From Leeuwenhoekiella aestuarii (GTDB taxonomy: Bacteria; Bacteroidota; Bacteroidia; Flavobacteriales; Flavobacteriaceae): DNA of 64,000 nt. The notes under the pieces are model-generated. The model saw only the letters and a program-made list of their open reading frames with translations. It was not told where the DNA came from and made no database searches. The stretch lies in contig NZ_QOVJ01000003.1 of assembly GCF_004104055.1 (NCBI RefSeq), forward strand, positions 186,001 through 250,000, given 5' to 3'. This document shows, one piece after another, positions 5,964 through 62,817 of the stretch. A program made the position numbers and the translations under genes. Position 1 is the stretch's first letter, and each line of letters starts with the position of its first letter.

Positions 5964-7784
5964 ATGAAGCGTATTTTAATAACCGGTATTCTCATTGCAT
6001 CATTTGTTACTTCATGTAAGACCGAAACCAAAGATCAGGATCAACTCACCGCTTTGGTAGACTGGCAACCTGCTCAGGAATATTATAAAAATCATCTGGA
6101 TACTGCTATACAGTATTTAGATTCTCTGGCACTAACGCCTATTGAAGATCCTAAGACTAAAACATACTTCAAAAAAGCTCGTGTTGCTTTTAAAAAAGCA
6201 GAACCCTATGCATCGTATATAAATCCTGAAGTAGGACATCGCGCTAACGGACCGGCCTTGCCTTTTTTGACCGACGATTCTCAGAAAGTTCTGGAGCCTG
6301 TTGGTTTGCAAAAACTGGAAGAGTCTATTTACGAAGGTGTGGCGAATGCAGCGATTTATCAAAATGAATTGCGGCTTACCAAAGGACTTTTAGAAATTTT
6401 AAAAGGCAATATCACCCAGCGCGAACTCAATGCAGAACGTTTTTTTATCGCTACGCATCAGCAATTGATGCGTATGATAAGTTTGGCGATTGCCGGTTTT
6501 GATACGCCGGTAAGCGGTTTGGGGCTCGCAGAAACCCAACAATCCTTGCAAAGTTTGCAACGTGTTTATGAGTTGAGTATTGCTGAGCGTATTGTTGAAA
6601 ACGATGCCCAATTAGATCAGGAATTTAAATATCAGATTCAGGATGCGATTGCATTTATTGAGACAAATGTTGATTTTGAGACTTTTGACCGTTATACGTT
6701 TATCAGAGATTACTTCAATCCCATAACGCGCAGTTGGGTTGCTATTCGCAAAACTTCCGGTTTATGGGAGCCTGTGTTGAATAAGCCCTTCAATTTTGAT
6801 GCACCCACTTTTTTTGAAGAAGATTCTTTTAATATAGAATACTTCAGGGCGATCACCAATCGCAATCCTTCCGAAGCTAAAATTGCATTGGGCAAACGCT
6901 TGTTCTTTGATAAGAACTTATCTCAGGCGAAGGATATGGCTTGCGTGACCTGTCACAATCCGAAGTTGGCTTATACAGACGGACTCGTAACCAATCTGAA
7001 TAACTCGGGTAATCCGTTAAAACGCAATTCACCTACCTTGGTCAATGCTATCTTTCAACGTGGTTTTTTCTGGGATGGCAGAGCCGAGACTTTACTGGCG
7101 CAAATTTCGGGCGTGTTCACCAATAAAGAGGAATTCAACAGCAGTGTTCATGAATTTTCTGATGAGGTCCTGAAAGATTCTACGTATTATAAAGCTTTTC
7201 AAGAAGTATTTGGTACGCGCCGTAAATGGAGTAATGACGAAACCATAAAAGCACTTTCGGCTTATATATCTACGCTTAACGGTTTCAGTTCTAAATTTGA
7301 TAAGAATATCAGAGGCGAAGTAGACACGTTCACAGCGTCTGAAAAACTGGGTATGAACTTGTTTATGGGAAAAGCTTTGTGCGCAACATGTCACTTTATG
7401 CCCTTGACCAGCGGAACCGTTCCGCCATTTTTTACCGATACTGAAAAAGAAGTTATAGGGGTTCCGGAGACTGTTGCTAATAAACAACTTGATGATGATC
7501 TGGGTTTTTATTTTATGTATAATGAGCCTATACAATTAGGAATGTTCAAAACCCCTACGGTACGTAATGTGTCGCTTACCGCGCCGTATATGCATAACGG
7601 CGTATATCAAAGTTTAGAAGAAGTTATTGATTTTTACAATAAGGGAGGCGGTGGTGGTCTGGGCTTTGATTTACCGCACCAGACTTTGCCCTTTGATGCT
7701 CTCAATCTTACTGATACTGAGCAAACAGCTCTGGTAGATTTCTTAAAAACTCTTACAGATGTCCCTCAGGAAACCGAATATTAG
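5964..7784 (+). CDS. Di-haem cytochrome c peroxidase lipoprotein with extra N-terminal helical domain
   Basis: The 606-residue exported lipoprotein has a lipobox ending VTSC at residue 18. Residues about 20-265 are a helical region absent from classical CcpA/MauG proteins; its LEPVGLQKLEE motif recalls the imelysin/EfeO-like domains often fused to Bacteroidota peroxidases, an inference. Residues about 295-600 are the di-haem peroxidase with two haem c sites, CVTCH and CATCH, and a candidate distal Met ligand in APYMHNG. Such enzymes take electrons from cytochromes to reduce H2O2 or oxidise protein substrates in the periplasm. It lies 82 bases after the PhoX-like lipoprotein gene. Confidence 0.9.
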   Translation: MKRILITGILIASFVTSCKTETKDQDQLTALVDWQPAQEYYKNHLDTAIQYLDSLALTPIEDPKTKTYFKKARVAFKKAEPYASYINPEVGHRANGPALPFLTDDSQKVLEPVGLQKLEESIYEGVANAAIYQNELRLTKGLLEILKGNITQRELNAERFFIATHQQLMRMISLAIAGFDTPVSGLGLAETQQSLQSLQRVYELSIAERIVENDAQLDQEFKYQIQDAIAFIETNVDFETFDRYTFIRDYFNPITRSWVAIRKTSGLWEPVLNKPFNFDAPTFFEEDSFNIEYFRAITNRNPSEAKIALGKRLFFDKNLSQAKDMACVTCHNPKLAYTDGLVTNLNNSGNPLKRNSPTLVNAIFQRGFFWDGRAETLLAQISGVFTNKEEFNSSVHEFSDEVLKDSTYYKAFQEVFGTRRKWSNDETIKALSAYISTLNGFSSKFDKNIRGEVDTFTASEKLGMNLFMGKALCATCHFMPLTSGTVPPFFTDTEKEVIGVPETVANKQLDDDLGFYFMYNEPIQLGMFKTPTVRNVSLTAPYMHNGVYQSLEEVIDFYNKGGGGGLGFDLPHQTLPFDALNLTDTEQTALVDFLKTLTDVPQETEY

Positions 7785-7854
7785 CTTTCTTTAAAGCGCG
7801 TTTGAGGCTCATTATATTTAAATGTGGGTGGCTGTGTAAAATAGTTCAAACTTT

Positions 7855-7881
7855 AGCAACAACTTAACAGGTTGCTGTTTT
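7855..7881 (+). terminator. Possible terminator after the peroxidase gene
   Basis: AGCAAC, a 10-base loop, GTTGCT, then GTTTT. A short stem with a modest T tract. Confidence 0.45.
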
Positions 7882-7888
7882 AACTTTG
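7881..7888 (+). promoter_or_regulatory. TAACTTTG -7 box just upstream of a start codon
   Basis: TAACTTTG ends eight bases before the ATG of the next gene, predicting a transcript with almost no 5' leader. The -33 box is poor. Confidence 0.4.
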
Positions 7889-7896
7889 TGCCTGTA

Positions 7897-8268
7897 ATGA
7901 AGGCATTTATCTATTCTGTATGTATGTTCTTGTTCCTGCTTTTTGGAGTAGGGCAGACGACGTATGGTTTTTCTTCAGAAACGACTTCTTTACAAAAACA
8001 CGATACCTCAAACCATACGGCGGTTATTGAGCGTGCCAATGACAAAGCGGTTACCGTTGAGCAACTCACGCTTGAAGAGCAAGAAGTTTCGGTAAGTGTT
8101 GAACTGCACCAACAGCAGGCAGATCGCTTTAGTAATTTTAGTGGCTCAGGAAAGCATCCTTACCTGTTTACGTTATCGGCTTATTCCAACTATTTAGAGC
8201 GATCTCTACTCATCAATCCGTCGTGTGCCAGGCTGGTGCTTATATTTCCATTCCATTTATTTCCGTAA
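7897..8268 (+). CDS. Small exported hypothetical protein
   Basis: 123 residues starting at an ATG; an in-frame GTG three codons earlier is less likely. It has a clear N-terminal hydrophobic signal segment (about residues 4-20), a polar Ser/Thr/Gln/Glu-rich middle, and a second hydrophobic patch at the extreme C-terminus (LVLIFPFHLFP). No family was recognised. Its own TAnnTTTG box lies directly upstream, so it is probably transcribed separately from the peroxidase. Confidence 0.6.
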   Translation: MKAFIYSVCMFLFLLFGVGQTTYGFSSETTSLQKHDTSNHTAVIERANDKAVTVEQLTLEEQEVSVSVELHQQQADRFSNFSGSGKHPYLFTLSAYSNYLERSLLINPSCARLVLIFPFHLFP

Positions 8269-8374
8269 TCTGTATTCTTTTTTAAAACTCACGTATGCAG
8301 TTTGTTAATCTGTAATACGTCTTTGTGATGCTTTGCATCCCTTCACTATTTTAAAAACAGCATACCTTATTATT

Positions 8375-46045: not shown

Positions 46046-47086
46046 TCATTTAGCTTTTTTCAACAATTCCTGCGCAGCCTGAAAAGCGGTAATTTTACCG
46101 GCATTTAAATCATTTAGAAGTTTCTGTAATTGATCCTGAACTTCGGTGTTTGCATAAAAGTCATCTTTTAACGCATTTTCAATACTAGTCTGTAACCAGT
46201 ATTTATTCTGATTTTTTCGATTTTCATTGAAGAACTGATTCGCTTTAACAGTGCTGAGGTATTCTTCAATAAGCTCCCAGATGCTTTCAATGCCTTGATT
46301 TTCGAGAGCGCTACATAAAGCAACCTGCGGTTGCCAACTACTCTCTTTTGCCGGAAACAGATGCAAGGCTTTGGCAAATGCCGTTTTAGCTTTTTTAGCA
46401 GCAGCTAGATTTTCTCCATCTGCTTTGTTGATGATAAGCGCATCTGCCATTTCTACGATTCCGCGTTTGATGCCTTGTAATTCATCACCCGCTCCGGCTA
46501 ATTTCAGCAGTAAAAAGAAATCAGTCATATTGTGAACTGCCGTTTCGCTCTGACCTACACCTACGGTTTCGATAAAAATAACCTCATAACCGGCTGCTTC
46601 ACAAAGTATGATGGCTTCCCGGGTTTTGCGGGCTACACCGCCCAGAGAATCTCCCGCAGCAGAAGGTCTGACAAAAGCATTTGGGTTTGTAGCGAGTTGT
46701 TCCATGCGGGTTTTATCGCCAAGGATACTTCCGTGAGTGATTGAGCTGCTAGGATCTATTGCTAAGACCGCAAGCTTTTTCCCGGTGTTGATGCAATGCG
46801 TGCCCAGTGCTTCGATAAACGTACTTTTACCCACGCCGGGAACACCTGTAATCCCTATGCGTACTGAATTACCGGAAAGGGGTAGACAACCCTTTAAAAC
46901 CTCTTGTGCTACTTGCTGATGCTTAACAGCAGTACTTTCAATAAGGGTTATTGCCTGACTCAAAGCTGTGGTGTTTCCGCAGCTTATTTTTTGGATAAGA
47001 TCTTCAGCCTGAAGGGCCTTTTTGCGTGTGGCAATTATTTTTTTTGCAGATGCGGAATAGATATGTTCAGGTTTTTTAGGTTTCAA
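46046..47086 (-). CDS. meaB: MeaB/ArgK-type G-protein chaperone of methylmalonyl-CoA mutase
   Basis: 346 residues. GTPase that guards loading of adenosylcobalamin into methylmalonyl-CoA mutase. Walker A GVPGVGKST near 80, followed by IDPSSSITHGSILGDKTRM (switch region), VETVGVGQSE (Walker B/switch) and NKADGEN (base recognition). The start is a TTG because no ATG lies upstream of the conserved N-terminal helix. Its presence implies B12-dependent metabolism, of interest because an ethanolamine ammonia-lyase is also encoded in this window. Confidence 0.93.
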   Translation of the reverse strand: MKPKKPEHIYSASAKKIIATRKKALQAEDLIQKISCGNTTALSQAITLIESTAVKHQQVAQEVLKGCLPLSGNSVRIGITGVPGVGKSTFIEALGTHCINTGKKLAVLAIDPSSSITHGSILGDKTRMEQLATNPNAFVRPSAAGDSLGGVARKTREAIILCEAAGYEVIFIETVGVGQSETAVHNMTDFFLLLKLAGAGDELQGIKRGIVEMADALIINKADGENLAAAKKAKTAFAKALHLFPAKESSWQPQVALCSALENQGIESIWELIEEYLSTVKANQFFNENRKNQNKYWLQTSIENALKDDFYANTEVQDQLQKLLNDLNAGKITAFQAAQELLKKAK

Positions 47087-60259: not shown

Positions 60260-60302
60260 GTTTAAAAACTAACTTTTAAATTGTCGGTTTATATTTTGAA
60301 GA

Positions 60303-60337
60303 GCCCTAAAACTGTAATAGTTTTTAGGGCTTTTTTT
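60303..60337 (+). terminator. Terminator of the GH51-DUF5695-M1 operon
   Basis: AGCCCTAAAACT pairs with AGTTTTTAGGGCT with one bulge; T7 follows. Confidence 0.88.
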
Positions 60338-60477
60338 GTTTAAATGAGGTTTTAAATTTCATATATGATAATACAGACGATCTATTTTATAAAATCCACA
60401 AAATCAGATCGATTTAACGCATTACAAACAAAGCCCGATTACTTTTTAGCTAACTTTAAGTAGATGAACAATTTACT

Positions 60478-62817
60478 ATGGAAGCAATTTCTAGAAAGAA
60501 TTTTTTAATTCAAATGGGTCTTATGAGCACGGCAACACTACTTTTTAATGGATGTAATTTTGCAGGAGAACAAGGTGAGTCTTTAAATTCTGTAAAGCTT
60601 GATCCAGCAAAAAATGGTGAAGATATTTTCAGTTACATTCAGCGAAATCAAGATAAATTAGATTTTGAATTGTATCGAAAAATAATTGGTGCAGCAAACG
60701 AATTTAAAGAAGGCGACCTCACTTTAGGTCTTGCAGCGGCGGATGAAGAATCTCGAAGAACGGCTCGTGAACTCTTGGGTAATACCAAAGTTAAGGCCAT
60801 AGATGCACACTTAATCTACGAGGATGACTTGTATAACCTAGTGCAACAAACTACACAGATTCCTTCTTCAGCACTTCAAGAGTTCACTTTAGGAGAATTA
60901 AAAACCTTTATTTTAGAACAACCGGAAGCTGAGATCAAGCGTATTATGCCGGCACTTTCTAGCGACGTAATAGGTTGTGTGGTTAAATTGATGTCTAATG
61001 AAGAATTGATTCTGGTTGGTCAGAAAGTGTTCAACCCTTTAGCGGGAAGTAAGATTGGGAGTAAAGGCTACTTGAGCGCGCGCGTACAGCCTAATTCTCC
61101 AACAGACCACCCGGATGACATTGCATGGCAGGTTTTTGATGCCTGGTCTTATGCGGTAGGTGATTTAGTTCTGGGTACTAATCCGGTATCAGGTGATCCG
61201 GTTTCTGTAGCAAAAATTGAAGCTACTCTTTATGATATTTTGCAAACGTTCCGTTTAGAAGAAACGCTTTCTAACTGCGTACTTTCTCATATAGATGTGC
61301 AGGCCAAAGTAGAACAAAGTCAACCCGGGACCACAGGTATTTGGTTTCAAAGTCTTGCCGGTACAGTAGCAGCCAATAAAACTTTTGATGTGACTATAAA
61401 AAAGATGCAGAAGTATACGAAGCTGCGTAACGCGCAATATGGCTTGTATGCAGAAACCGGTCAGGGAGCTGATTTTACAAACGGTCATGGAGCCGGTTTT
61501 GATATGGTTTTACACGAATCTAGAAAATATGGCTTTGTTCGGGCTTTGCAAGAACAACTCAAACAACAAACCCCGAAAGGACCCCAACCCTGGGTTCATG
61601 TAAATGATGTTGCAGGATTTATAGGTCCTGAAGTTTTTAAGACTAGAGAACAATTAGTACGTTGTTGTTTAGAAGATACAGTGATGGGTAAGTTACACGG
61701 CCTTACTATAGGTCTCGATATTTGTTCAACCTTGCATATGGACATTTCGCTAGATGATTTGAGTTGGTGTATTGAGCAGCTGATGCCCGCTAATCCTGCA
61801 TATCTGATGGCACTACCCACTAAAAATGACCCTATGTTGAGTTATTTGACGACCTCCTTTGCAGATCACGTACGCATACGCGAAAAATTTGGTTATAAAG
61901 TAAATGATGCGATGTGGGAATTCTTTAAAGAGCTAGAAATTATAGATGCTGAAGGAAAGCCCACTGAACATTTTGGAGACCCAAAATGGGTGTATTATAA
62001 GTTTAGACAAGCAAAAGGTGATTCCAGAAGCAAAGCTAAAATTGATCAGGAAGCGTCACTTCAACTCCAGAAAATACGAAATCGTGGTGTATCAATTGCA
62101 GAAGGATATGGAGACCAAATTTGGGATTTAGATCCACAACTCGAAGCTGAGGTTAAGAAGCTTTATGAGGATGCTAAAGAAAGCTTATGGACGCCAATGG
62201 CTGAACAATTTGCAAATAGTATTGAAAATGCATTATTGATCACCACACGATCTGAAGATCGCAAAGACTATGTATATCATCCCGAGAGTGGTGAAGAACT
62301 ATCCTTTAATGCCACAAGCAAGCTCAAAAAATTACGACAAAGTTGGTCTGCAGTTCCAGATGTACAAATCATCATTTCTGATGGTTTAAATGCTCGAGCT
62401 TTGATGGATGAAGGTCATTTAAAACCTTTTTTGATTACACTAAAAGAAGAATTGAAAAATGCTGGTTTAAGCATCAGTACTAAAAATCTGGTCGTAACCC
62501 ATGGACGCGTACGTGCCGGTTACGCCTGTGGAGAGCATTTATTTGGAACTAGTAGAGGCCGGCAAAATAAAGCCATTGTGCACATCATAGGTGAGCGCCC
62601 CGGCAGCGGACATCATAATTACTCAGCCTATCTCACAGCGGCACCTCCAAAAAGTTGGTCACAAAAGCGTTGGGTAGATCACGATATTACCCGTGTGGTA
62701 TCTGGTATTTCTGATACAGCACTTGATCCTGAATTAGCAGCACAACAAACAGCAACTATTTTAACAAGTTTGCTGAAAAAGGATTTTAGAGAGCTGAAAG
62801 CGATGAAGAGTGCGTAG
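60478..62817 (+). CDS. Ethanolamine ammonia-lyase, EutB-EutC fusion with export-type N-terminus
   Basis: 779 residues combining both subunits of the adenosylcobalamin-dependent enzyme that converts ethanolamine to acetaldehyde and ammonia. EutB part about 45-500: SARVQPNS (catalytic arginine), LGTNPV, YAETGQGA (glutamate) and GLDICSTLHMD (aspartate) match the enteric EutB active site. EutC part about 565-779: VPDVQIIISDGLNARAL, VTHGRVRAG and IGERPG. The N-terminus SRKNFLIQMGLMSTATLLFNGC resembles a Tat or Sec lipoprotein signal. No permease, reactivase EutA or shell genes are adjacent. Fusion and active-site residues are directly seen; export is inferred. Confidence 0.92.
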   Translation: MEAISRKNFLIQMGLMSTATLLFNGCNFAGEQGESLNSVKLDPAKNGEDIFSYIQRNQDKLDFELYRKIIGAANEFKEGDLTLGLAAADEESRRTARELLGNTKVKAIDAHLIYEDDLYNLVQQTTQIPSSALQEFTLGELKTFILEQPEAEIKRIMPALSSDVIGCVVKLMSNEELILVGQKVFNPLAGSKIGSKGYLSARVQPNSPTDHPDDIAWQVFDAWSYAVGDLVLGTNPVSGDPVSVAKIEATLYDILQTFRLEETLSNCVLSHIDVQAKVEQSQPGTTGIWFQSLAGTVAANKTFDVTIKKMQKYTKLRNAQYGLYAETGQGADFTNGHGAGFDMVLHESRKYGFVRALQEQLKQQTPKGPQPWVHVNDVAGFIGPEVFKTREQLVRCCLEDTVMGKLHGLTIGLDICSTLHMDISLDDLSWCIEQLMPANPAYLMALPTKNDPMLSYLTTSFADHVRIREKFGYKVNDAMWEFFKELEIIDAEGKPTEHFGDPKWVYYKFRQAKGDSRSKAKIDQEASLQLQKIRNRGVSIAEGYGDQIWDLDPQLEAEVKKLYEDAKESLWTPMAEQFANSIENALLITTRSEDRKDYVYHPESGEELSFNATSKLKKLRQSWSAVPDVQIIISDGLNARALMDEGHLKPFLITLKEELKNAGLSISTKNLVVTHGRVRAGYACGEHLFGTSRGRQNKAIVHIIGERPGSGHHNYSAYLTAAPPKSWSQKRWVDHDITRVVSGISDTALDPELAAQQTATILTSLLKKDFRELKAMKSA

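Follow-up and report, generated by a model that had tools for sequence, protein, structure and literature searches.

The window analysed here, 64,000 nucleotides of contig NZ_QOVJ01000003.1 of Leeuwenhoekiella aestuarii, carries a gene for a putative ethanolamine ammonia-lyase (EAL) in which the large subunit, EutB, and the small subunit, EutC, form one chain behind a signal-like N-terminus (Table 1). The fusion, proposed in the initial annotation, was borne out by Pfam, which placed both domains in the same frame. The protein passed the NCBIfam EutB model (585 bits, cut-off 554) and stayed far under the cut-off of the EutC model (82 vs 230 bits); both models were matched by 22/22 members of set A1 in a search at E ≤ 10. 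Its nearest relatives are the proteins from Leeuwenhoekiella polynyae (L002, 95% protein identity) and L. blandensis (L008, 81%).

Table 1 Features of the window and of related loci (window positions unless a locus or contig is named; rows are those of the family alignment)
Feature	Position	Strand	Basis
Terminator-like hairpin with T run, 3' of the upstream gene	60300..60337	+	z -4.8
Single-chain EutB-EutC protein with N-terminal signal	60478..62817	+	ATG start, 779 aa; Pfam, NCBIfam
Signal-like N-terminus, residues 1-26: n-region with SRKNFL, moderate hydrophobic stretch, LLFNGC	60478..60555	+	sequence, hydropathy
SRKNFL, residues 5-10, Tat-like motif (RK, not RR)	60490..60507	+	sequence
Cys26, lipobox-like	60553..60555	+	alignment; Cys at the same place in 11/14 of the window's clade
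EutB (large subunit) domain, residues 63-497	60664..61968	+	Pfam E 2.8e-134
R202 and Q204 (E. coli R160, Q162)	61081..61089	+	identical in 46/46 rows
N235 (E. coli N193)	61180..61182	+	identical in 46/46 rows
E326 (E. coli Glu287)	61453..61455	+	identical in 46/46 rows
C396 and C397, family-specific cysteines	61663..61668	+	C in 45/46 and 46/46 rows; 0/30 conventional
D414 (E. coli D362)	61717..61719	+	identical in 46/46 rows
C431, family-specific cysteine	61768..61770	+	C in 45/46 rows; 0/30 conventional
EutC (small subunit) domain, residues 539-768; SDGL, GRV..GE, GERPG motifs	62092..62781	+	Pfam E 2.2e-33
MeaB	46046-47086	-	
DUF5695 protein, 899 aa	55883-58582	+	
Remnant of the EutBC 3' end, L. 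marinoflava	L022:7866-8620		~0.37 kb
D2 copies, multi-helix membrane protein, ~260 aa	L016:2630-3412; L098:8622-9419; L097:9306-10094; L095:5364-6191 (-); L012:4085-4915		
Secreted-looking HAD-type phosphatase gene	L012:275-1711		
Distant fused EutBC-like paralogue (L094)	G866:C277, ORF ~6104-8275		511 bits

In the PDB sequence search (E ≤ 0.001), the five distinct chains matched were all EAL. With an AlphaFold model of the window protein (mean pLDDT 75.7, built on 21 sequences), Foldseek found the E. coli EutB chain 3abo_A (E 1.1e-23, TMt 0.84, 29% identical) and 3abo_D (E 4.6e-10, TMt 0.73), the EutC chains overall being 23-25% identical and the diol and glycerol dehydratases ranking after the EAL chains. 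The predicted fold is that of an EAL. Like the conventional enzyme (E. coli 3abo, Listeria 2qez), the window protein has both domains, the fold (TMt 0.80-0.84 for EutB and 0.70-0.77 for EutC) and the active-site residues; unlike it, it is not made of two separate chains without export signals, and the two chains are only ~29% (EutB) and ~24% (EutC) identical to it. As the active site we take R160, Q162, N193, E287, F329 and D362 of the E. coli enzyme, with numbers counted on the alignment. All six, F329 being represented by F381, were identical in 46/46 family rows, a count that takes in the signal-less L061, L062 and L094 described below; the conserved active site of the initial annotation is borne out. 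Glu287 is reported to be key for, or to help, radical-pair formation (PMC4413051). The EutC motifs were conserved in the rows inspected. A further 16 positions (counted without L061, L062, L084 and L094) were invariant in the family but differently occupied in at least 85% of 30 conventional EutB proteins, for example T334, A379, C396, L419 and M421, and because of this divergence the substrate range may differ. A disulfide between C396 and C431 is an idea that would fit an extracytoplasmic place. The two cysteines were missing together only in L094; since L061 and L062 retain both though they have no signal, a tight link between cysteines and export is disfavoured.

The first genome scan gave 21 loci, 20 of them with a full-length gene and one (L022) with a 3' remnant. 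Counted over genome samples that overlap in part, the fused family was present in 5/149 genomes of the window's taxonomic family (its own genome included), 6/395 of its class, 9/246 from the phylum of a planctomycete member, 11/247 from the phylum of a Desulfobacterales member and 7/22 of one class, where 3 partial matches were found in addition; its members come from Bacteroidota, Planctomycetota and deltaproteobacterial genomes. No second copy was detected in the own genome (4.43 Mb), in which the protein matched only itself at E ≤ 0.001. The same kind of search did pick up conventional EutB elsewhere, as the sixth match among the 149 genomes (G100). Conventional EutB proteins scored at most 296 bits against the family model and family members more than 1000, the outlier L094 lying at 511. 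This distant paralogue has no signal and is without C396 and C431, and its genome (G866) also carries the exported form.

We read the N-termini of 48 distinct members (the window protein, 44 fused rows without L094, and L118-L120; L117, which has a piece identical to one in L012, was counted together with L012), sorting them by eye and by Kyte-Doolittle hydropathy. An export-type N-terminus was present in 46 of the 48, and in 0/30 conventional EutB proteins. Three forms make up the 46: 20 members have a motif RR-x-F/V like that of the twin-arginine translocation (Tat) pathway, 14 form the window's clade and have R followed by K, T, D or E, and 12 have a Sec-like, strongly hydrophobic signal ending near an AxA-like site. 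The signal noted in the initial annotation is thus kept among the homologues, of which only L061 and L062 start downstream of it.

In a 59-row tree, which took 15 of the 30 conventional EutB rows, the family and conventional EutB were split by a branch with 100/100 support, and the same split received 100 SH-aLRT in a 75-row tree; neither tree contained L084, which a contig end truncates, and L094 was absent from the 59-row tree. Two EutB-EutC fusions without export signal, L112 (G605, 734-aa frame) and L113 (G1010, 705-aa frame), lie inside the conventional group, and therefore a fused chain is not by itself diagnostic of the family. The window's RK-type rows formed one clade of 14 (98/96, 59-row tree): 11 are Flavobacteriaceae or same-family rows, and the remaining 3 come from other orders of the class. 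This clade grouped with RR-type Bacteroidota rows (100/99). The RK-type group required 2 changes in the 75-row tree and 1 in the 59-row tree, because L033 (MRREEFI, with RR one place out of register) bore the RR label in the former and the RK-type label in the latter. The Sec-type rows grouped together at 97/64, which is weak by SH-aLRT. Judged from these comparisons, at least three phyla retain an export-type signal, which takes a twin-arginine, a Sec or an RK-type form, the last mostly accompanied by a lipobox-like Cys. We conclude that export of the fused family is well supported by comparison, and that the window protein is probably an EAL belonging to a distinct, extracytoplasmic family of single-chain enzymes.

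The window signal itself appears to descend from a Tat signal, since its clade groups with the RR-type Bacteroidota rows, and it may now use the Sec route or a weakened Tat route; with RK in its motif, Tat is a candidate route only. Of the Tat or lipoprotein signal ending at Cys26 that had been annotated initially, the export-type N-terminus and the cysteine stand; the motif carries no twin arginine. In LLFNGC the Cys and the G at -1 are present, and F at -3 is atypical against the lipobox consensus. Within the clade, only L018, L021 and L024 are without a Cys at this place; outside it, one aligned row (L077) has it. Lipoprotein anchoring is likely for the window's clade only and not for the family as a whole.

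Partner proteins were searched for in 12 genomes holding the fused family, some of them drafts. TatC (PF00902) was matched in 12/12, in 11 over the cut-off (own genome, E 2.3e-67). A PduO-type adenosyltransferase (PF01923) was found in 10/12 and not matched in G150 and G153; the own genome has it, which allows cytosolic synthesis of adenosylcobalamin (AdoCbl). The reactivase EutA (PF06277) was found in 0/12 genomes. Matches to PF06277 counted as over the cut-off in 9/12 covered 48-133 of 475 positions, 3/12 giving no match, and the nine apparent EutA proteins were rejected as FtsA (PF14450 E ≤ 3.5e-42; TIGR01174 365-381 bits, cut-off 176). At L136-L144, PF06277 reached its gathering score on ordinary FtsA over ~80-100 positions, and therefore EutA calls by this score alone can be false. 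The ethanolamine permease model TIGR00908 gave no match in the own genome; 7/12 genomes matched at E ≤ 0.001, only one over the cut-off. MeaB is encoded elsewhere in the window and no eut gene was found among the four neighbours scanned with Pfam, both as annotated initially.

Seven Sec-type loci were available with flanks (L012, L016 and L095-L099). An ABC ATPase gene lay 3' of EutBC in 6/7, and a membrane protein that we call D2 was encoded between the two in five loci, and the genome of L096, the sixth, has a 47-residue piece of it. Genes for a periplasmic binding protein and a FecCD permease followed in four loci, the contigs of L012 and L097 ending earlier; an aldehyde:ferredoxin oxidoreductase-type gene adjoined in 4/7; and MoxR and DUF58 genes came next in two (L016, L095), L098 being without them and the L096 stretch ending before. 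Pfam was run on the genes of L016 and on the oxidoreductase of L095. The best NCBIfam matches of L016 were the vitamin B12 permease BtuC for the permease (282 bits, cut-off 461), a corrinoid ABC transporter ATPase for the ATPase (227 bits, cut-off 537) and a PGF-CTERM-anchored protein for the binding protein (88 bits, cut-off 325). Corrinoid transport by these BtuCDF-like genes is likely, with all matches below the curated cut-offs. Directly 5' of EutBC in L012 lies the gene for a HAD-type phosphatase with a weak NCBIfam match below the cut-off and no Pfam match, which perhaps releases ethanolamine or choline from a phosphate ester.

D2 had no Pfam match (L016's copy, E ≤ 0.1) and was present in 8/247 genomes: in 7 of the 8 with Sec-type EutBC vs 1 of 239 others (Fisher p 6e-12, overstated because kinship is ignored). 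The two departures were G957, which has D2 alone, and G949, where EutBC, cut by a contig end, is without D2; in G930 and G1027 the D2 and EutBC genes lie on different contigs. None of the Tat-type genomes of that phylum had D2 (0/3). The structure model of D2 (mean pLDDT 38.5, from two sequences) was too poor to use.

In the window, the EutBC gene is flanked by genes for secreted-looking proteins and is probably its own transcription unit, since a hairpin separates it from the upstream M1-type peptidase gene. The pattern scan did not list this hairpin, an equivalent of which occurs in L. marinoflava (z -6.0), and promoter scans gave nothing useful. The DUF5695 protein gene stands beside those of the M1-type peptidase and an arabinofuranosidase-like protein, in an order that is syntenic in the window and three other Leeuwenhoekiella genomes. 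Outside this genus, only pairs of the Bacteroidota loci share any neighbours, with the exception that an M1-type peptidase gene is also found at L014, but more than 4 kb from the EutBC gene.

Neither fusion nor the absence of EutA is a novelty in itself: in the parts consulted of the 2012 description of Pelobacter carbinolicus (PMC3543383), fused EutBC1 and EutBC2 (Pcar_0491, Pcar_0467) occur without eutA. Like the Sec-type loci, that cluster includes an aldehyde oxidoreductase, a multitransmembrane protein, a corrinoid-type ABC transporter, VWFA proteins and an ATPase, and this context suggests that the P. carbinolicus proteins belong to the fused family. In the same parts of the text, substrate uptake was proposed and enzyme export is unmentioned. 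The Acinetobacter baumannii EAL needs neither EutA nor a microcompartment to work; its EutC is reported to lack an N-terminal signal sequence of the kind discussed for microcompartment targeting, and export is unmentioned in the parts consulted (PMC9426561). From the conventional Eut system, with EutA and separate signal-less subunits, the window protein differs by its fusion and its signal. For a corrinoid enzyme synthesised with a Tat signal peptide there is a precedent in the reductive dehalogenase PceA, which belongs to a separate class of cobamide enzymes and is not an adenosyl-radical enzyme (PMC5500849). None of the titles and abstract openings searched, in a collection that lacks most subscription journals, reports an exported EAL, and no literature linking MoxR/VWA with ethanolamine was found. 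What may be new in the arrangement, which according to the initial annotation would be a new one, is the export.

We propose that the signal would send the window protein across the inner membrane, and that Cys26 would probably anchor it as a lipoprotein facing the periplasm. The exported EutBC would bind AdoCbl at the EutB-EutC interface and split ethanolamine, for which phospholipid debris is one conceivable source; the products, ammonia and acetaldehyde, would diffuse or be carried into the cell. AdoCbl made in the cytosol could be loaded into the enzyme before Tat export. This is the periplasmic, Tat-exported and cofactor-loaded enzyme first suggested; its export-type signal is upheld, but the 12 members with Sec-like signals rule out cytosolic loading with Tat export as a general scheme. 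The Sec-type relatives would need AdoCbl uptake after export, and their BtuCDF-like transporter, D2 and, in two loci, MoxR/DUF58 could supply or renew the cofactor instead of EutA. It is a tentative and rather doubtful extension of this scheme that a whole family of AdoCbl radical enzymes is extracytoplasmic, with an unfolded apoenzyme exported in the Sec branch and charged or recharged by an envelope system of D2, BtuCDF-like, MoxR and DUF58 proteins that replaces EutA, while in the other branches the loaded enzyme travels by Tat or is held at the membrane by a lipid anchor. From its sequence we infer localisation, cofactor loading and activity of the window protein, and for the window organism, with strength falling in this order, export route, lipid anchor, cofactor path and substrate.

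Several observations weigh against an extracytoplasmic EAL. The window protein has RK where the twin-arginine motif S/T-R-R-x-F-L is expected, its hydrophobic stretch is weak (best 12-residue Kyte-Doolittle mean 1.28), and the public Tat models PF10518 and TIGR01409 gave no match to its N-terminus. Even RR members matched these models only below the cut-off: PF10518 in 3/10 N-termini tested (3/5 with RR) and TIGR01409 in 2/8 (2/5 with RR); in the own genome TIGR01409 matched three places, the EutBC gene not among them. Hydropathy does not part the groups cleanly, with 0.88, 1.12 and 1.16 for the exported-type L018, L021 and L060, and conventional rows at no more than 0.79 save L068, which reaches 1.07 via an alternative upstream start. 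The planctomycete proteins L061 and L062 and the outlier L094 are without signal. The gene is dispensable, as it is patchy even within the taxonomic family and in L. marinoflava has been lost by an in-place deletion equivalent to about 60422-62469 of the window, only part of its 3' end remaining. A search of 16 sources for cobalamin riboswitches gave none at Rfam gathering scores, and several active-site loops of the structure model have pLDDT <50. The reading would also require AdoCbl to be available outside the cytoplasm and to be renewed there without ATP.

The alternative that survives best, though we consider it unlikely, is that the protein is exported but in practice not an ethanolamine lyase, acting on a different amino alcohol (choline or 2-aminopropanol, for instance) or serving periplasmic corrinoid binding or storage. 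An identity of ~30% to conventional EutB, the 16 diverged family-invariant positions, the corrinoid-uptake-like genes beside Sec-type EutBC and the choline that the P. carbinolicus authors raised as substrate for one of the two fused copies (PMC3543383) are in its favour, whereas a mere binder would not need the six invariant active-site residues, the Glu287 equivalent included, and the oxidoreductase gene at 4/7 Sec-type loci fits an aldehyde product.

Still less probable is a cytosolic enzyme whose hydrophobic N-terminus is an uncleaved anchor or tether, with the catalytic part inside, near AdoCbl and ATP. In known systems AdoCbl is synthesised, EAL reactivated and aldehyde oxidised in the cytosol (for the role of EutA, see PMC9426561), and the imperfect motif and weak hydrophobic stretch of the window protein, the RT, RD and RE variants in its sister proteins and the two members without any signal would suit such a tether. 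However, the three signal types keep layouts beyond a tether's needs (RR-x-F/V with a weak h-region, a strong h-region with an AxA-like end, and Cys after the h-region), and no conventional EutB examined has an N-terminus of this kind. Finally, a wrongly annotated start, with the true protein beginning 3' of the signal, was rejected as extremely improbable: the only in-frame ATG, GTG or TTG codons between codon 1 and the EutB domain, ATG 13 and ATG 16, are still within the signal, the next start, TTG 65, is just within the EutB match, the extension is kept across the family, and the signal codons look selected as protein, because in a comparison with L. blandensis, codons 1-26 of the window gene have fewer nonsynonymous differences (5 synonymous, 2 nonsynonymous) than codons 27-47 (9 and 9).

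Adenosyl-B12 radical enzymes are regarded as cytosolic, since it is in the cytosol that ATP is spent on making, fitting and renewing their cofactor, and an enzyme of this B12 type outside the cell interior would be unexpected. An exported EAL family makes this assumption testable: either the cofactor is carried across the membrane, or the envelope holds an AdoCbl pool and a system for its renewal, for which the linked membrane protein D2, of uncharacterised function, is a candidate to test. If the window protein indeed works outside the cytoplasm, marine bacteria could take nitrogen from ethanolamine without importing it.

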